From Candidatus Egerieimonas intestinavium (GTDB lineage: Bacteria; Bacillota; Clostridia; Lachnospirales; Lachnospiraceae), in contig DVHU01000060.1 in assembly GCA_018711815.1 (NCBI GenBank), positions 1-64,000 of the forward strand: 64,000 bases of DNA, written 5' to 3'. How positions within the stretch are numbered: position 1 is the first letter of the stretch; every line of letters begins with the position of its first letter. Positions 6,231-14,855 of this stretch are shown piece by piece. The notes below the pieces were generated by a model that was given only the letters and a program-made list of their open reading frames with translations, did no database searches and was not told the origin of the DNA. A program made the translations under genes and the position numbers.

Positions 6231-8075
6231 ATGAACATATTGAACATTGAACATATCGGCAAGGTCTTTGGAGAGAAGGTTATCTTCGAGGACGCCTCCT
6301 TTGGGATTCACCAGGGAGATAAGATTGGGATTGTGGGGATCAACGGCACCGGAAAGACTACCCTGCTGCGGCTGGCCGCCGGTGTGGAAGAGCCGGATCA
6401 GGGACAGGTGGTGTGCCAAAACAATTTGAAGCTGGCCTATCTGCCCCAGAGCCCGGAGTTCCCTTTGGAGGCTACGGTGGAATCCTATGCCCTGAAGGGG
6501 GAGGCGGATACGGACTGGCGGGTGCAGAGCAATCTTAACCAGCTGGGCATTGAGGATTATCAGGGGAAGCTATCTCAGCTCTCCGGGGGCCAGAGAAGGC
6601 GGGTGGCCCTGGCGAAGGTGCTGGCGGAGGATTTTGACGTGCTGCTCATGGACGAGCCCACCAACCACCTGGACGGTCAGATGATCGAGTGGCTGGAGGA
6701 GTATCTGAAGGCGTACCGGGGAACGCTGCTGATGGTGACTCATGACCGCTATTTCCTGGACAAGGTCTGTAATCGGATTCTGGAGATCAGCCGAGGAAAG
6801 ATGTACAGCTACGAGTCCAATTATTCCCGTTTCCTGGAGCTGAAGGCAGAGCGGGAGGAGATGGAGCTGGCTTCAGAGCGGAAGCGCCAGAGTATCCTGC
6901 GCATGGAGCTGGAGTGGGCGAAACGGGGCTGCCGGGCCAGGAGCACCAAGCAGAGGGCGAGGCTTCAGAGGCTGGAGGCCCTGAAAAGCGGGAAGGCTCC
7001 GGTACAGGAACAGGTGGTAGAGATGGATTCCGTGGAGACCCGGATGGGGAAAAAGACCATCGAGCTTCACCAGGTAACCAAGGGGTATGCGGGGAAAAAC
7101 CTGGTGGAGGACTTCTCTTACACGGTGCTGCGCAACCAGCGCCTGGGCATCATCGGCCCCAATGGCTGCGGAAAATCCACGCTGCTGAAGATGATTGCCG
7201 GTTATCTGCAGCCGGATCAGGGCCGGGTGGAGCTGGGAGAGACCATTAAGATCGGATATCTGGCTCAGGAAGAGCCGGATATGGACACGGACCGGCGGGT
7301 GATTGATTATGTGAAGGATATCGGGGAGTATGTGCAGACCCGGGAGGGAAGAATCAGCGCCTCCCAGCTGCTGGAGCGGTTTTTATTTACCCCGCAGATG
7401 CAGTACACGCCGGTATCCAAGCTTTCCGGAGGGGAGAAGCGCCGGCTCTACCTGCTCTCCGTGCTGGTGAGCGGGGCAAATGTCTATCTGCTAGATGAGC
7501 CCTCCAACAACGTGGATATTCCCACGCTGACGGTGCTGGAGGATTATCTGAACTCCTTCTCCGGTATTGTCATCGCCGTGTCCCACGACCGGTATTTCCT
7601 GGATAACGTGGTAGATAGGATCTTTGAAATGGACGGCCAGGGGCATCTGCAGCAGTATGAGGGCGGCTACACGGATTACCTGGAGGCCAAGAAAAGGCGG
7701 GCCGCCGAAGCCCAGGAGGGCTCTGGCCGGGATGAGTCTTTTGGCAAAACAGGCCTGAGCAAGGGCGCGAAAGCCGGGAAAGAGGAAGGACAGGAGAAGA
7801 AATCCTCCAGTGACTGGCGGCAGAACCGGCCGGTGAAGCTGAAATTTACTTACAAGGAGCAGAAGGAATTTGAGACCATCGAGGAGGAGATCGCCAGACT
7901 GGAGGCTGTCCTTGAGGAGCTGGAAGCCCAGATGGCGGCCAATGCCACCGATTCCGGACGGCTCAATGAGCTGATGCGGGAGAAGGAGCAGGCGGAGAGC
8001 CGCCTGGAGGAGAAGATGAACCGCTGGGTTTATCTGACGGAGCTGGATCAGAAAATCCGGGAACAAAATTCCTGA
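6231..8075 (+). CDS. ABC-F family ATP-binding protein (Uup-like)
   Basis: Soluble tandem ABC ATPase of the ABC-F family, which acts on the ribosome (translation rescue or antibiotic protection) rather than in transport. 614 residues. First ATPase: Walker A GINGTGKTT, signature LSGGQRRRVALAKVL, Walker B VLLMDEPTNHLD. The charged interdomain linker (about residues 225-290) corresponds to the P-site tRNA interaction motif. Second ATPase: GPNGCGKST, LSGGEKRRLYLLSV, VYLLDEPSNNVD. The C-terminal coiled coil (about 530-612) resembles the Uup C-terminal domain. ATG 6231 gives the family N-terminus MNILNIEHI; the frame is open further upstream but without homology. There are no membrane segments. Resistance versus housekeeping role cannot be decided here. 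Confidence 0.93.
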   Translation: MNILNIEHIGKVFGEKVIFEDASFGIHQGDKIGIVGINGTGKTTLLRLAAGVEEPDQGQVVCQNNLKLAYLPQSPEFPLEATVESYALKGEADTDWRVQSNLNQLGIEDYQGKLSQLSGGQRRRVALAKVLAEDFDVLLMDEPTNHLDGQMIEWLEEYLKAYRGTLLMVTHDRYFLDKVCNRILEISRGKMYSYESNYSRFLELKAEREEMELASERKRQSILRMELEWAKRGCRARSTKQRARLQRLEALKSGKAPVQEQVVEMDSVETRMGKKTIELHQVTKGYAGKNLVEDFSYTVLRNQRLGIIGPNGCGKSTLLKMIAGYLQPDQGRVELGETIKIGYLAQEEPDMDTDRRVIDYVKDIGEYVQTREGRISASQLLERFLFTPQMQYTPVSKLSGGEKRRLYLLSVLVSGANVYLLDEPSNNVDIPTLTVLEDYLNSFSGIVIAVSHDRYFLDNVVDRIFEMDGQGHLQQYEGGYTDYLEAKKRRAAEAQEGSGRDESFGKTGLSKGAKAGKEEGQEKKSSSDWRQNRPVKLKFTYKEQKEFETIEEEIARLEAVLEELEAQMAANATDSGRLNELMREKEQAESRLEEKMNRWVYLTELDQKIREQNS

Positions 8076-8089
8076 GAAAGGGGAAGGCT

Positions 8090-8920
8090 ATGTATATTCG
8101 AAACCTGATGGAGGACACCGGGAGTATTTCAGAGCCGGGACGGCGGATGATCTGTGAGCACGGCCTGAGCTTTTATCTGGAGACGCCCAGGCATAAGCTG
8201 CTTTTCGACCTGGGGGCTACGGACGCATTTCTTGCCAACGCCCGGCAGGCGGGGATAGATGTGAGCCAAGTGGATACGGCGGTGATTTCCCACGGCCACT
8301 ATGACCACGGAGGGGGATTGGAAGCGTTTTTGGAGGCCAACCACAGGGCTTCCGTCTATCTGCGGGAGGGAGCCTTCGATCCGCATATTTCCCTGCAGGG
8401 GGAGAATATTCACCGGATTGGCCTGGAGCCAAAGCTGCAGGAAAATCCGCGGATTCACCTGCTGAGGGAAGACACCTGGCTGGACGAGGAGCTGTTTGTG
8501 TTTGGAAATGTCACAGAGCGCAGGCTCTGGTCCCAGTCTAACCGGCGGCTCCGGATGGGAACTCTGGGATATCCCCAGGATTCCTTTGTCCACGAACAGA
8601 GCCTGCTGCTCTTGGCGGAGGGCAGGAGGATACTGCTGGCGGGCTGCTCCCACTGTGGTATCGTGAATATCCTGGAGAAATGCCGGGAACTGACGGGCAG
8701 CTGGCCGGAGGCAGTGATCGGCGGCCTGCATCTGTCCAATCCCCGGGGGCAGGAAGAGCTGGATCTTCCCCTGCTGGAGGGAACTGCCCGGTATCTGGAG
8801 GCCACCGGTGCAGTCTACTATACGGGGCACTGTACCGGGCTGGAGGCCTATGAGTGGCTGCGAAAACGCCTGGGGGAGCGGATTGTGTACATCCACTCCG
8901 GGGATCAGGTGAGGATATAA
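8090..8920 (+). CDS. MBL-fold metallo-hydrolase
   Basis: 276-residue metallo-beta-lactamase fold protein beginning 14 nt after the ABC-F stop, probably the same operon. Zinc motif SHGHYDHGGG (HxHxDH) is intact. Later ligands are suggested by GCSHCGIVNI, the GGLHLSNP segment and TGHCTG near the C-terminus. This arrangement matches the subgroup annotated as dihydropterin/RFA-P synthase-like MBL proteins (COG1237), which are common in Clostridia without methanopterin; the true substrate is unknown. Cytosolic, no signal peptide. Ribosome binding site GAAAGGGGAAGG precedes ATG 8090. Confidence 0.85.
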   Translation: MYIRNLMEDTGSISEPGRRMICEHGLSFYLETPRHKLLFDLGATDAFLANARQAGIDVSQVDTAVISHGHYDHGGGLEAFLEANHRASVYLREGAFDPHISLQGENIHRIGLEPKLQENPRIHLLREDTWLDEELFVFGNVTERRLWSQSNRRLRMGTLGYPQDSFVHEQSLLLLAEGRRILLAGCSHCGIVNILEKCRELTGSWPEAVIGGLHLSNPRGQEELDLPLLEGTARYLEATGAVYYTGHCTGLEAYEWLRKRLGERIVYIHSGDQVRI

Positions 8921-9016
8921 TCCCGGAAAGCGGCAGGGTCGGCGGTGGCCCGGGATCAGAAGGACGCATAAGATAATAAGGAAAACAAGGCTCTGTCAGA
9001 GCAAAGGAGTATTTCT

Positions 9017-9310
9017 TTGGAGAATCTTATGGAATTTGTGAAGCCGGAGCTTCTGGTGGTGGCGGTAGTCCTCTATTTTGTGGGCCTGGGCCTGGAGAAG
9101 GCCCAGGCAGTTAAGGAAAAGCTGATTCCCCTGATTTTAGGGGGAACGGGGATCCTTATCTGCGGAATTTATGTCTTTGCCACCTGCTCCTGCACCGGCC
9201 CCGGGGCCATTGCCATGGCCTTCTTCACCTCCATCACCCAGGGAATCCTGGTGGCCGGCGCCTCCTACTATGTGCGCCAGGTGACGGTGCAGCTGAAGAA
9301 GAAGGAATAG
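9017..9310 (+). CDS. Holin-like small membrane protein (phage holin Hol44-type)
   Basis: 97-residue protein with about three hydrophobic segments (residues 11-25, 36-55 and 67-86) and a basic C-terminal tail, KKKE. The FVKPELLVVAVVLYFVG opening and the QGILVAGASYYV segment resemble the phage holin family Hol44 (holin superfamily V), often found outside prophages in Clostridia. TTG 9017 is chosen as start because AAGGAG (9004-9009) sits 7 nt before it, while ATG 9029 would be 19 nt away. No endolysin or phage gene is adjacent, so a resident holin-like function, perhaps in spore or cell lysis, is likely. A perfect bidirectional terminator follows. Confidence 0.75.
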   Translation: MENLMEFVKPELLVVAVVLYFVGLGLEKAQAVKEKLIPLILGGTGILICGIYVFATCSCTGPGAIAMAFFTSITQGILVAGASYYVRQVTVQLKKKE

Positions 9311-9358
9311 CAAAGGGGCGGCTGTGTTCCCCTCCAGGAGGACACAGCCGCCCCTTTG
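9311..9358. terminator. Bidirectional terminator between holin-like gene and cotJC
   Basis: Perfect 17-bp stem CAAAGGGGCGGCTGTGT (9311-9327) with its complement at 9342-9358 and a 14-nt loop. A/T runs on both sides fit termination of both converging genes. Confidence 0.9.
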
Positions 9359-9390
9359 CTGCGATTTCATTTTTGTCTGCCTGCTTTCCT

Positions 9391-10017
9391 CTACTTGCAG
9401 CTGTCGCAGCTGGCCTTGCAGGGGTTGTCGAAGCTGGGGTTGAAGGCGAAGAAGTTTTTCTCGTCCAGCTGATCCAGCACGGACTGCAGAGCCTCGCCAA
9501 ACCGCTGGTAGTGGACGATCTCCCGGGCCCGCAGGAAGCGGATGGGATCGGCCACATCCGGATCCTTCACCAGGCGGAGGATGTTGTCGTAGGTGGTGCG
9601 GGCCTTCTGTTCCGCGGCCAGATCCTCGTGGAGATCAGTGATGGGATCTCCCTTGGACTGGAACTGGTTGGCGTTAAAGGGAACGCCTCCCGCCGCCTGG
9701 GGCCAAATGCCGGCCGTGTGATCCACATAGTAGGGACCGAAGCCGGAGCACTCGATTTCCTCCATGCTCATGTTGGCTGTCAGCTGGTGGACGATGGTGG
9801 AGACCATTTCCAGGTGGGCCAGCTCCTCGGTGCCGATATCGTTCAAGACGCCCATGCAGATGCGGTTGGGAGCGGTGAAGCGCTGGGAGAGATAGCGCAT
9901 GGAGGCTCCCATTTCCCCGTCGGGTCCGCCGTATTGACTCAAAATGATCTGGGCCAGCTTGGGATCGGGCTTGGTGATATTGATGGGATACTGCAATCTT
10001 TTTTCATAATTCCACAT
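9391..10017 (-). CDS. cotJC: Spore coat protein CotJC (manganese catalase family)
   Basis: 208-residue member of the manganese catalase family that is part of the inner spore coat in Bacillus and Clostridia. The ferritin-like di-manganese ligands are visible as GTEELAHLEMVSTIVHQL (Glu and His) and DLAAEQKARTTYD plus AREIVHYQRFGEAL. The C-terminus carries a cysteine cluster (CKASCDSCK). Last gene of cotJABC, separated from cotJB by a few bases. Expected expression is in the mother cell from the promoter upstream of cotJA. Full length; identification firm. Confidence 0.95.
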   Translation of the reverse strand: MWNYEKRLQYPINITKPDPKLAQIILSQYGGPDGEMGASMRYLSQRFTAPNRICMGVLNDIGTEELAHLEMVSTIVHQLTANMSMEEIECSGFGPYYVDHTAGIWPQAAGGVPFNANQFQSKGDPITDLHEDLAAEQKARTTYDNILRLVKDPDVADPIRFLRAREIVHYQRFGEALQSVLDQLDEKNFFAFNPSFDNPCKASCDSCK

Positions 10018-10020
10018 AGG

Positions 10021-10305
10021 TCAGCGTCCTCCTTTCCTGCAGGGCTCCCAGGGCCAGGGCTGAAGTACCCAGGCCCAGGAGGAGCTGGCAGCGTCGTCGG
10101 CGGTGTCAATGGTCAGCGGGCCATAGTTGCAGGCATACTCCTTCAGCAGGCGGTTCCGGGCGGATACATGCTCCCGGAAATATTCCAGGGCCTGGGTATC
10201 CTCCGGGTGGGTGTCCAGATAGAGGAGAATGTCGTCCACGGCGAAGCTGACCTCATTAATCCTTTGCAGATATTGCTGTCGGGTCATGATTCGGTTGTTA
10301 TTCAT
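10021..10305 (-). CDS. cotJB: Spore coat protein CotJB
   Basis: 94-residue CotJB, an inner coat component encoded between cotJA and cotJC. The start MNNNRIMTRQQYLQRINEV is the family N-terminus, and its ATG overlaps the cotJA stop by 4 nt. A conserved helix follows (SFAVDDILLYLDTHPEDTQ) with the tyrosine-rich ending YACNYGPLTID. The frame is open further upstream but that part is antisense or overlapping cotJA and not homologous. The C-terminal tail (WAWVLQPWPWEPCRKGGR) fits the family's tryptophan-rich end. Confidence 0.93.
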   Translation of the reverse strand: MNNNRIMTRQQYLQRINEVSFAVDDILLYLDTHPEDTQALEYFREHVSARNRLLKEYACNYGPLTIDTADDAASSSWAWVLQPWPWEPCRKGGR

Positions 10306-10574
10306 CTGCAGACACCTCGCTTTCCGCAGAAGGGTTTGCACAGATCCGGGAAGATCGTTCCCATCTGCAGGGCTTTGCACAGGGGAAATGTGGGTCCAAA
10401 CTGCTGAATTTTTACATACGCCATGGCCAGCGGGCGGTGGCACTCAGGCATGGCGCAGGATGCTCTATGGGAAGGCTGCGCGGAGCCCCAGGTATTCCGG
10501 GAAGTCTGGGCTCCGGCGCTGCCGCAGGGGCAGCTGTTTTGGCAGCCGTTGTGGCTGTAACGATAGGAAGCCAT
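10302..10574 (-). CDS. cotJA: Spore coat associated protein CotJA
   Basis: 90-residue CotJA, first gene of the cotJ operon. The conserved core LAMAYVKIQQFGPTFP with downstream FPDLCKPFCGK is clear. The N-terminal half is variable and cysteine-rich (NGCQNSCPCG and SCAMPEC), which may serve coat cross-linking or metal binding. The gene starts about 27 nt from a candidate mother-cell sigma promoter and is divergent from the DUF3786 gene. Confidence 0.9.
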   Translation of the reverse strand: MASYRYSHNGCQNSCPCGSAGAQTSRNTWGSAQPSHRASCAMPECHRPLAMAYVKIQQFGPTFPLCKALQMGTIFPDLCKPFCGKRGVCR

Positions 10575-11430: not shown

Positions 11431-11503
11431 GGGGCATTAGCGCAGCTGGGAGCGCGCCACAATGGCATTGTGGAGGCCACGGGTTCGAATCCCGTATGCT
11501 CCA
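11431..11503 (+). tRNA. tRNA-Ala (anticodon GGC)
   Basis: A 73-nt cloverleaf. Acceptor GGGGCAT pairs with ATGCTCC and includes the G3:U70 wobble that defines alanine identity. D-arm GCGC/GCGC, anticodon stem CCACA/TGTGG with loop ATGGCAT (anticodon GGC), T-arm ACGGG-TTCGAAT-CCCGT, discriminator A. CCA is not encoded. Flanked by its own promoter and terminator. Confidence 0.97.
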
Positions 11504-11514
11504 TACAGAAAAGG

Positions 11515-11545
11515 AAATCCGAGCTCAGAGATGAGTTCGGATTTT
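11515..11545 (+). terminator. Terminator of tRNA-Ala
   Basis: AAATCCGAGCTC (11515-11526) pairs with GAGTTCGGATTT (11533-11544) with one wobble, followed by T-rich sequence. Confidence 0.8.
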
Positions 11546-11563: not shown

Positions 11564-11622
11564 GGGCTGCTGCAATATTCGATATATTCTCGTATATCTG
11601 TTAATTGCAGCAGCCTTTTTTT
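11564..11622 (+). repeat. Palindromic element with terminator-like T-run (copy 2)
   Basis: GGCTGCTGCAAT (11565-11576) pairs with ATTGCAGCAGCC (11604-11615), followed by seven T. The loop sequence (ATTCGATATATTCTCGTATATCTG) is homologous in part to the arms of the element at 1030-1182. It ends 25 nt before the start codon of the HA-repeat gene and follows the tRNA terminator by only about 20 nt. Confidence 0.75.
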
Positions 11623-11647: not shown

Positions 11648-14600
11648 ATGCCGGCAAATGATGAAAGAGACCAGCGGGAGAGGGAGTGGCTCAAGCTCTG
11701 GCGGCTGGCCAGGGAATACTATGAGGAGCACGGCGATCTGCTGATTCCCGGCAGTTATGTTTCCCAGGGAGAACGGTTGGGCGCCTGGATAGGAACCCAG
11801 CGGTGGGAGTACAAGAGGAGGATGAATCCCCGGCTCACCCGGGAGCGCATAGACCGGCTGGAGGCCATTGGGATGGTTTGGGACGTAAAGGAGTTTCGCT
11901 GGCAGTCCATGTACAGCCAACTGGAAAAATACCTGAGCCTCCACGGGAATATACGGGTGCCTCAGTCCTACGTGACGCCGGAGGGAATCCGGCTGGGAAC
12001 GTGGCTGAATAAGGTCAGAACAGCGTTTAAAAGAGGAAAGCTGTCTAAAGACCGCCAAAAGCAGCTGGAAGCTTTGGGGATAGACTGGTCTCCCGAGCTT
12101 CTGCGCCGGGGCAGCTGGGAGCATTATTTTCAGCTGCTCAGGGATCATGTGGACTGCAATGGCAGTTTCCCTTCCAGCGGATACGTCACAGAGAAGGGAG
12201 ATAAGCTGGGCATATGGCTGTCCAACCAGCGGAGAAAGGAAAAGCTGGGAGCTTTGAGCTGGGATCGGCGGCAGCGGCTGGAGGAGCTGGGGATGGTGTG
12301 GGATGTGCCGGAGCAGATGTGGGAGGAGCGTTATAATCAGGCCCAGGCATATTATCTTGAGTGCGGCCACCTGGGACAGGGGCAAAGGGGCGGTCTGTCC
12401 ATGTCTGCCTCCTTATCCCAGTGGCTTACCGCCCAGAGAAAGGCCTGGCGTGCAGGTACGCTCTCAGAGGAGAAAATAAAAAGCCTGGAGGCTATCGGCA
12501 TGCGCTGGGAGCTAAGGGAGGAGCTGTGGGAGATCTCTTACGGGGAGGCAAAGGCATATTTTCGGGAGCATGGCCACCTGCGGGTGCCCCGAGAGAGGGA
12601 GCCCTACGCTTCCCTGGGCAGGTGGATCAGCACCCAGAGGAAAAGCCGCAAAGCCCATAGGCTGAGCCGGGAGAGGATCAGAAAACTGGAGGAAATCGGC
12701 ATGGTCTGGGATGCGGGGACGGAACCGGAAACCCTGTGGGAAAATTGGTTTGCCCGGGCGGAGGCCTACAGCAAGCGGTACGGTCACCTGAGCCCGGCCA
12801 AGGGCAAGCTGCGCACCTGGATTTTAGCCCAGCGAGCAGCGAAAAAGGGCAAGCGGGGACAGCTGACAGAGGAGCAGATCCGACGGCTGGAGGAAATCGG
12901 TATGATCTGGGACGCGCCGGCGGAGCAATGGCAGAGGATGTATCAGCTGGCCAGGGAATACTATCAAATTCATCAGATGCTGAATATCCCCTGCAATTAT
13001 GTGACAGAGACCGGGGAACGGCTGGGCAGTTGGATTGTCCGGCAGAGGCGCTGTTATAAAAATTATTTGGCGGGCAGATCCGGGGGAGGCATAGGCGCTA
13101 TCACCCCGGAACGCATTGCGCTTCTCAATGAAATCGGCATGATCTGGGACGGCACCCAGCTCACCGCCAGAACCTCTTTTCCGGAAAAAGCCCTTCTGTT
13201 TTATTTGAGAAAGCATTTCCCGGATGCGGTGAAGCATTCCCGGTGGCAGCAGCCGGAATTCGAGTTGGATCTTTACATTCCTTCCAGGCGGACGGCTGTG
13301 GAATATGACGGAAATCCCTGGCACCGGGACAAGAAGGAACAGGATGAGCGGAAGGGGAAACTCTGCCGGGAGCACGGCATCAGTCTGATTCGGATAAGGG
13401 AGAAAGGACTACCTCAGGTAGCTCATTGCCAGCAGGTCATTGAGCTTACGGATTTCCGGGAGGAAGCCCTGGAGGCGGCCATCAGCAGCCTCTTTGGGTA
13501 TCCGGGTGTGCCGTGCCCAAGCTTGGATATAAAGGGAGATCGAAAAGCTATCCTGGAGACTTACAGGAATTATACGGCCAGGGCCTGGGACCGGGTTTAC
13601 GAGGAAATTCTCCGGTATTACCGGGAGAAGGGCTCCTTAAAAATACCGGAGAATTTTGTCAGCGACAGCGGGATCAGCCTTGCCGGCTGGCTGAACTGCC
13701 AGAGGGATGCCTACAGAAATAATGAGCTGACAGACCTGCAGATCAGGAAGTTGGAGCAGTTGGGAATCCGGTGGGCGCCCCATCAGGAGCGCTGGGAGAA
13801 TATGTACCAGCTGGCGGCCGCTTACGCCAAAGAGCAGGGAGAGCTGAGCATCCCCCATGATTATGTGACCGGCGAGGGGGTGCGTCTGGGAGCCTGGCTG
13901 GCCAGTCAGCGGGAGCTGTACCGGAAGCATAAGCTGGAGCCCAGACGCATTTATCTGCTGGAGCAGCTGGGAATCCATTGGGAGCCGCTCAAGGAGCGGC
14001 AGAAAAATTATCTGGCTGCGGCCCGGGATTACCACGAAAAGACTGGCGGATTGGATATCCCGGCAGCTTATATTACCGGGGAGGGATTAAGGCTGGGAGA
14101 ATGGCTGGTGAAACAGAGAAGCGATCGCCGGGCGGGAGTTTTGGACCCGGAGAGAATCCGCCAGCTGGAAGAGATGGGTATTCGCTGGGAGCCCTTCGAT
14201 TCTCGCTGGGAGGAAATGTATGCCCTGGCCCGGGAATATTATCAGGCCCACGGGGAGCTGCGCATTCCTTACAGTTACAAAGCCGGTCAGGGGCAGCCTC
14301 TGGGACGATGGCTATCCCAGCAGCGCCGGAAGCTTTCGGGAACCGGGGGACATCGCCGGCTAACGGAGGAGCAAAAAAGAAGGTTGGATGAAATCGGTAT
14401 GGTGTGGGAGCCCTGTGAGGATGAGTGGATGAAGAAATACCGGCGGGCCCGGGAGTTTTATCAGGCCCATGGCCATCTGCAAATCCCTGTGGATTATGTG
14501 ACTGAGGATGGGATCAAGCTGGGTATGTGGCTGGCCTGCCAGCGCAAGGCTATGCGGGGAAATCCCAACTATCGGATGAGCGGTAAACGGCAGAGAATGT

Positions 14601-14719
14601 TGGAGGAGATTGGCATAGAATGGACAACTCCGGGCATTATTTCCGCGGCCGGAGCTCCCGGCCCAATTCTCCCAGACAGTGCCAGAGGACCGTTGCGGAG
14701 CACCCAAAGATCACATTGA
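11648..14719 (+). CDS. Twelve-repeat helicase-associated (HA) domain protein with embedded PD-(D/E)XK-like nuclease domain
   Basis: 1,023 residues with no helicase motor. Seven HA repeats of about 65 residues (roughly 14-80, 85-148, 156-220, 224-288, 293-356, 363-423, 427-501) and five more (646-711, 715-780, 784-849, 853-922, 926-993) share a pattern of W, an HG pair, IP..YVT, LG.WL..QR and LEEIGM.W. Between them (about 508-617) lies a Vsr/DUF559-type PD-(D/E)XK-like domain with E513, D541 in ELDLYIP, E552-x-D554-G, W558-H559 and an IRIRE strand (581-585). HA domains elsewhere are implicated in nucleic-acid binding. Inference: a modular DNA- or RNA-targeting nuclease. Start ATG 11648 follows AAAGGGGAGG. 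The last 30 residues are non-repetitive and overlap an antisense small ORF. It stands alone after tRNA-Ala. Confidence 0.85.
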   Translation: MPANDERDQREREWLKLWRLAREYYEEHGDLLIPGSYVSQGERLGAWIGTQRWEYKRRMNPRLTRERIDRLEAIGMVWDVKEFRWQSMYSQLEKYLSLHGNIRVPQSYVTPEGIRLGTWLNKVRTAFKRGKLSKDRQKQLEALGIDWSPELLRRGSWEHYFQLLRDHVDCNGSFPSSGYVTEKGDKLGIWLSNQRRKEKLGALSWDRRQRLEELGMVWDVPEQMWEERYNQAQAYYLECGHLGQGQRGGLSMSASLSQWLTAQRKAWRAGTLSEEKIKSLEAIGMRWELREELWEISYGEAKAYFREHGHLRVPREREPYASLGRWISTQRKSRKAHRLSRERIRKLEEIGMVWDAGTEPETLWENWFARAEAYSKRYGHLSPAKGKLRTWILAQRAAKKGKRGQLTEEQIRRLEEIGMIWDAPAEQWQRMYQLAREYYQIHQMLNIPCNYVTETGERLGSWIVRQRRCYKNYLAGRSGGGIGAITPERIALLNEIGMIWDGTQLTARTSFPEKALLFYLRKHFPDAVKHSRWQQPEFELDLYIPSRRTAVEYDGNPWHRDKKEQDERKGKLCREHGISLIRIREKGLPQVAHCQQVIELTDFREEALEAAISSLFGYPGVPCPSLDIKGDRKAILETYRNYTARAWDRVYEEILRYYREKGSLKIPENFVSDSGISLAGWLNCQRDAYRNNELTDLQIRKLEQLGIRWAPHQERWENMYQLAAAYAKEQGELSIPHDYVTGEGVRLGAWLASQRELYRKHKLEPRRIYLLEQLGIHWEPLKERQKNYLAAARDYHEKTGGLDIPAAYITGEGLRLGEWLVKQRSDRRAGVLDPERIRQLEEMGIRWEPFDSRWEEMYALAREYYQAHGELRIPYSYKAGQGQPLGRWLSQQRRKLSGTGGHRRLTEEQKRRLDEIGMVWEPCEDEWMKKYRRAREFYQAHGHLQIPVDYVTEDGIKLGMWLACQRKAMRGNPNYRMSGKRQRMLEEIGIEWTTPGIISAAGAPGPILPDSARGPLRSTQRSH

Positions 14720-14804
14720 CGGGAAGCCGCAGCCAGAGGCTCATGGGAATCCAGAAATGATTCATCGCCACGGCAGCCCAGAAACCAAAAAAGAAACAAT
14801 ACAT
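14637..14804 (-). CDS. Possible small two-helix membrane protein
   Basis: A 55-residue frame, MYCFFFGFWAAVAM... ending ELGRELRPRK, with two hydrophobic segments (about residues 3-20 and 30-45) and a basic cytoplasmic-type tail, which is the profile of a genuine small membrane protein. GGGAGGGG lies 5 nt before the ATG. It overlaps the 3' 83 nt of the HA-repeat gene on the opposite strand and lies downstream of the GntR gene; its ribosome site is buried in a hairpin (14806-14855). I know no family for it. It could be a chance frame or a remnant. Confidence 0.4.
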   Translation of the reverse strand: MYCFFFGFWAAVAMNHFWIPMSLWLRLPVNVIFGCSATVLWHCLGELGRELRPRK

Positions 14805-14805
14805 A

Positions 14806-14855
14806 CGCCCCTCCCGCAGAGTAGTCTATAAAACTAATCTATGCGGGCAGGGGCG
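14806..14855. terminator. GC-rich hairpin downstream of GntR gene
   Basis: CGCCCCTCCCGCA (14806-14818) pairs with TGCGGGCAGGGGCG (14842-14855) with one bulge. There is no long T-run on either side, so termination would be weak. On the minus strand it includes the ribosome binding site of the small ORF 14637-14804. Confidence 0.5.

Follow-up and report, generated by a model that had tools for sequence, protein, structure and literature searches.

A Vsr-like nuclease domain between two arrays of helicase-associated repeats, a candidate single-gene mobile endonuclease found beside a tRNA gene

Related nucleases and the layout of the protein

The closest described relatives of the nuclease considered here are homing endonucleases of the EDxHD/Vsr lineage. 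Those of phage introns combine ~60-aa CapR/DUF4379-like domains with an EDxHD/Vsr nuclease and have thousands of unannotated relatives (PMC12350094), while phrog_559, which is intron-encoded in phage terminase genes, has been assigned to the VSR endonuclease fold (PMC11878797). I-Bth0305I, small and phage-encoded, is an extended multi-domain DNA-binding protein built around a small nuclease (PMC3943268). The very-short-patch-repair endonuclease Vsr is a small repair enzyme that lacks repeat arrays. Helical repeats accompany a Vsr-like domain in the RAP/FASTK and OPR-type proteins, which are RNA binders of eukaryotic organelles, and FASTKD4 has been described as Vsr-like (PMC11879112). The helicase-associated (HA) repeat (PF03457) is widespread, yet the literature searched gave no explanation of what it reads.

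The DNA analysed here is a 64,000-nucleotide stretch of the gut bacterium Candidatus Egerieimonas intestinavium (contig DVHU01000060.1), referred to below as the window. A gene on its forward strand (11648-14719) encodes a basic protein of 1023 aa (pI 9.4), here called HA-nuclease, for which we found no description in the literature searched. The initial annotation had read it as twelve HA repeats, free of any helicase and split 7+5 by a nuclease domain, and this layout was borne out. PF03457 matches 12 stretches of the protein (Pfam; 644 bits, E 1e-198, cut-off 28.4), and no helicase family, including the ResIII/Helicase_C motor, has a Pfam match in it. With repeat borders taken from a model built on the protein itself, the N-terminal array (aa 11-499; 11678-13144, forward strand) holds repeats 1-7 at aa 11-77, 82-146, 154-217, 222-286, 291-353, 361-420 and 425-499, and the C-terminal array (aa 644-991; 13577-14620, forward strand) holds repeats 8-12 at aa 644-708, 713-777, 782-846, 851-919 and 924-991, residues 500-643 dividing the two. 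Pfam gave no match to the PF14311 (DUF4379) treble-clef repeats, and the NCBIfam search returned nothing useful. A full-length structural model (pTM 0.27) yields no reliable repeat arrangement, and neither the model nor the search made with it informs the shape of the arrays. In its own genome the sole match to the protein is itself, and the 633 plasmid records retrieved by tblastn are mostly labelled as helicase-associated-domain proteins or helicases. Viral contigs gave distant nuclease matches only and no close relative of the full protein.

The C-terminal tail (~aa 993-1023; 14624-14716, forward strand) is absent from the orthologues described below, whose C-termini read W[ST]L[RK]R..P(N/G)AR. 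Since these last ~30 residues are not common to the orthologues, the C-terminus of the window protein may have been remodelled. A 62-residue hydrophobic open frame on the minus strand (14637-14825) overlaps this non-homologous 3' tail of the gene and is perhaps the remnant of a gene broken at the insertion edge.

The domain between the arrays (~aa 500-622; 13145-13513, forward strand) is assigned to the EDxHD/Vsr lineage from its alignments and its predicted structure. The residues singled out initially, E513, D541, E552-x-D554 and W558-H559, are located as claimed, and the acidic residues, whose conservation in homologues had been named in advance as a test of the assignment, are conserved. 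E513, E539, D541, P545, E552, H559 and K569 occur in all rows of a first set of relatives (13 domains), and D541, E552, H559, D566 and K569 are invariant in a second (12 domains), with E513 nearly so; as aligned, the conserved residues form an E-D-x-H-D pattern. The PD-(D/E)XK fold that had been expected was recovered in an AF2 model of the region (pLDDT 84, pTM 0.81). VIA-align superimposes this model on Vsr (1cw0; Z 8.3, 98 residues, 2.8 Å), on I-Bth0305I (3r3p; Z 8.2, 94 residues, 3.3 Å) and on other PD-(D/E)XK nucleases, a Z of ~8 being not decisive by itself and in agreement with the sequence match to 3r3p. Foldseek gave no match to the model at E <0.001. When the nuclease-domain profile was compared with PDB sequences, the sole significant match was again 3r3p, the I-Bth0305I catalytic domain (E 5.7e-6), which has Ala at the positions aligned to D541 and H559, possibly reflecting an inactivated construct. 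Two PHROGs families labelled as endonucleases, phrog_559 (E 4e-11) and phrog_3339 (E 2e-9), match at aa 503-586, and DUF559 (PF04480) matches aa 504-587 weakly (17.1 bits with the whole protein and 21.5 with the domain alone; cut-off 20.6). Of the Vsr/DUF559 label first given to the domain, the Vsr lineage stands, with EDxHD/Vsr homing endonucleases rather than plain DUF559 proteins as its closest relatives. Related nuclease domains are also present in Listeria phage P100 (DQ004855.1:113504-113863) and other large Listeria phages, several of these records carrying a DUF4379 label.

HA-nuclease shares with the CapR/DUF4379 proteins the nuclease family and the repeated, putatively DNA-reading units of ~60 aa, but the units of the latter are zinc-finger-like and, in the Clostridia examined, often flank the nuclease, and those of HA-nuclease are all-helical. 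Its nuclease domain is related to that of I-Bth0305I by profile and by fold, and it has a similarly extended multi-domain build in which DNA binding is putative, but it is chromosomal and much larger, with 12 HA repeats flanking the nuclease. With Vsr it has the fold in common but not the absence of arrays. The SF2 helicases contain the same repeat family, but there the repeats follow a ResIII/Helicase_C motor (e.g. L025-L027) that HA-nuclease lacks. No significant sequence match to the RAP/FASTK and OPR-type proteins was found.

Among 195 relatives, the same nuclease was found without HA repeats, and HA repeats were found in SF2 helicases. Dozens of these relatives hold the nuclease inside split DUF4379 treble-clef arrays (e.g. 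4+5, 3+4, 3+3), with 6-9 PF14311 repeats each. In a tree of 62 nuclease domains with an unresolved backbone, the HA type forms one clade within this finger family (support 96/61), and a single origin of the HA type is present in 96% of the bootstrap trees. Since the HA type is one group within the DUF4379-finger nucleases, a single replacement of zinc fingers by HA repeats is the most likely history. What had been proposed as a new modular architecture is real in that an HA array surrounds a nuclease, but it represents a domain swap on the DUF4379-finger template and not an unprecedented plan.

Orthologues, genomic loci and tRNA genes

Five orthologues (48-63% identity) were found in Lachnospiraceae and Oscillospirales. 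A search of 397 genomes of the family gave Lachnoclostridium sp. An138 (63% identical), the junction and nuclease region, used to scan ~85,000 species genomes, gave Evtepia gabavorous, Flavonifractor sp. An100 and a mouse-gut Eubacteriales MAG, and the fifth is G1106. Some of the sequences are MAG contigs; a chance fusion or assembly artefact is ruled out by the five independent orthologues. Four of the five have the 7+5 layout (L111, L112, L114, L150) and An138 (L113/L091) is 2+5. Repeat 1 of An138 is a hybrid whose front half resembles repeat 1 of the full arrays and whose back half resembles their repeat 6, which implies that five repeats were lost there, or gained in the others, by in-register crossover. 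Between orthologues, pairwise dN lies at about 0.3-0.5 and dS, which is saturated, at about 1.4-2.7, indicating purifying selection on the repeats as well as on the nuclease. In the orthologue of G1106, repeat 10 contains an in-frame TAG (L150:6680-6730), possibly the mark of a pseudogene or a sequencing error. The E. gabavorous orthologue (L112:1448-9798) lies in an island with tmRNA, Dam-type methyltransferase, nuclease-like and tyrosine-recombinase-like genes, as recognised by eye.

The HA-nuclease ORF begins 145 bp past the end of a tRNA-Ala (GGC) gene (ARAGORN; 11431-11503, forward strand), on its 3' side. The interval contains a terminator-like hairpin (11514-11545, forward strand) and a second hairpin with a longer loop and a T run (~11565-11622, read from the sequence), and no sigma-70-like promoter was found in it. 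That the gene follows a tRNA gene directly had been pointed out from the start, and the position proved to be part of a family-wide 3'-side bias. A survey that drew mainly on Clostridia, its ORFs called mechanically, took in 66 nuclease genes of the HA and finger types together. Of these, 14 lie within 500 bp of a tRNA gene on its 3' side and none on its 5' side, against a tRNA adjacency of 16/830 (1.9%) for other ORFs (binomial p 3e-11). HA helicases and four-HA-repeat genes in similar genomes are tRNA-adjacent in one case of 39 (Fisher p 0.006). Two of the six HA-type genes stand beside a tRNA gene, and 52 of the 66 nuclease genes have no tRNA alongside. The neighbouring tRNAs are of the Ser, Leu, Pro, Thr, Ala, Met, Gln, Arg and Tyr isotypes, and since these differ and the tRNA-adjacent cases are dispersed across the tree, most of the cases are independent. 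In ten of the 14 the gene runs in the direction of the tRNA, and in four against it. The distance between tRNA and gene varies from 54 to 490 bp, which is unlike one fixed cut site.

The HA orthologues occupy unrelated loci, and so do finger-type relatives with 72-79% DNA identity, which are found in different families and whose similarity stops within ~30 bp of the gene. Since the similarity ends at the gene borders, the moving unit appears to be the gene itself. At the G1106 locus, two relatives have tRNA-Thr after the same upstream gene without the insertion, and the downstream flank is unalignable; at the window, a comparison through the DUF3786 neighbour had no genus mates to draw on. An occupied/empty site pair alignable on both sides was obtained for neither of these two loci. 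The explanation that we favour, and hold to be reasonably probable, is that the gene encodes a mobile endonuclease of the EDxHD/Vsr homing lineage that is free-standing, moves as a single gene, and has two HA arrays as sequence readers instead of zinc fingers or NUMODs. The bias to the 3' flank of tRNA genes would then imply that mobile elements of a single gene, able to settle next to tRNA genes with no integrase, form a large family that has mostly gone unrecognised.

The 3' ends of tRNA genes are classic integrase sites, and Ser, Leu and Tyr tRNAs are frequent neighbours of the nuclease genes, as would be expected if the gene were a passenger of integrase-borne islands using such ends and the nuclease had no part in its own movement. 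The tmRNA and the recombinase-like gene near the E. gabavorous copy would also fit. This origin is nevertheless unlikely, since a search of tRNA and distal flank at 16 loci (15 testable) found no att-like direct repeat above background, no recombinase pattern was found near the nuclease genes at tRNA loci with the simple patterns used, the DNA similarity stops at the gene, and the HA helicases and four-HA-repeat genes of similar genomes do not share the preference for tRNA genes.

It is similarly improbable that the protein is a solitary anti-phage nuclease, with HA arrays that recognise invading DNA, a Vsr-like domain that cuts it, and a tRNA flank that is simply a common landing place for accessory genes. 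The gene is indeed solitary, accessory and scattered, and the E. gabavorous island with its Dam-type methyltransferase, nuclease-like and tyrosine-recombinase-like genes (by eye) is of the expected kind. However, PADLOC gave 0 matches for HA-nuclease, no conserved partner or modification gene was present at the six loci, the closest relatives are homing endonucleases that phages themselves carry, and finger-type relatives appear to be transferred as single genes without their flanks. Of the defence or mobile-element function suggested by the initial annotation, the mobile element is the better supported, and the defence role has neither a PADLOC match nor a conserved partner gene in its favour.

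Helix 2 of the repeats and the proposed mode of action

Same-numbered repeats are 54% identical across species, against 33% among differing repeats, and the best match of a repeat lies at the same array position in 168 of 192 cases. Among the columns that vary between repeats, those on one face of helix 2 (37, 40, 41, 44, 45 and 48) show unusually high conservation across orthologues (p 4e-4 for helix-2 columns versus all others; helical periodicity among columns varying between repeats, p 0.005). In repeat 2, where the helix is predicted at 116-128, this face consists of T118, N121, K122, T125, A126 and R129. The same column test gave no periodicity for helices 1 and 3. Since helix 2 had been picked after looking at the data, the six columns were retested unchanged in an independent HA family, and the preset columns again stood out (p 4e-4; L097, L098, L099, L100 and L108). 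The leading columns there (41, 40, 49, 44, 22, 45, 37, 20) are nearly the same set as in HA-nuclease. Such a pattern would be expected of repeats that each retain recognition residues of their own, with helix 2 as the putative site of base contact. Modular sequence recognition, at first raised only as an open possibility, has in this way become a testable helix-2 pattern seen in two HA families.

For the free-standing mobile endonuclease favoured above, we infer a DNA rather than an RNA target, together with DNA binding, cutting and homing. The basic HA repeats would line the nucleic acid, the variable helix-2 face of each meeting a few bases, and the seven- and five-repeat arrays would bind the two sides of a single long site. 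Placed between the arrays, the Vsr-like domain would cut in a metal-dependent manner, and repair with the gene-bearing copy as template would insert the gene, sites just 3' of tRNA genes being favoured.

As regards mechanism, the main alternative is an RNA target, since the organellar proteins of eukaryotes that combine helical repeats with a Vsr-like domain act on RNA (PMC11879112). An RNA-acting protein of the FASTK/RAP kind, with its helical repeats ahead of a Vsr-like domain and perhaps with tRNA transcripts as substrate, would agree with the Vsr-like character of FASTKD4, with the fold matches to mitoribosomal proteins of Toxoplasma (Z 8.4) and Tetrahymena (Z 6.8) and with the nuclease genes beside tRNA genes, but it is the least likely of the alternatives given the conserved full EDxHD catalytic set, the sequence affinity to DNA-cutting homing enzymes, and the four of 14 tRNA-adjacent genes on the opposite strand, which fit insertion better than co-transcription.

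Extending the mobile endonuclease reading, the HA repeats may form a TALE/PPR-like modular reader in which the six helix-2 residues of each repeat address a few bases and the number and order of repeats set the target. HA-nuclease would then be a naturally occurring homing nuclease of tRNA loci that can be re-programmed, its array evolving by in-register repeat loss. We put this forward tentatively and consider it rather doubtful. Should there be such a code, HA arrays would add a new class to the modular binding repeats. The joining of a helicase-free HA array to a cutting domain offers a direct assay of HA reading, because each repeat can be exchanged or removed and the position of the cut then mapped, and the helix-2 pattern names the residues to change.

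Other proteins with HA repeats

The independent family used above consists of proteins of ~300-450 aa with four HA repeats and no detected helicase or nuclease, from Lachnospiraceae and Flavonifractor relatives (L097:7086-7985, L098:7838-8740, L099:95-970, L100:1451-2335, L108:7109-8470 and L153:5607-6539). An 860-aa protein (L031:6534-9116) combines a DUF559/Vsr-like nuclease with zinc-finger-like segments, an HTH and four HA repeats, and is a second HA-nuclease fusion with its domains in another order. At L034, a three-HA-repeat ORF (6970-8157) lies directly upstream of a zinc-finger/nuclease ORF (8570-10462), as if the halves of an HA-nuclease were carried by split genes. One HA repeat is followed by NUMOD-like, nuclease-like and HTH-like segments (by eye) in a protein of 489 aa (L042:7938-9407). 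Finally, two HA repeats are apparently joined to a HIT-like nucleotide-binding domain, the latter recognised by eye, in a protein of 284 aa (L093:7540-8394).
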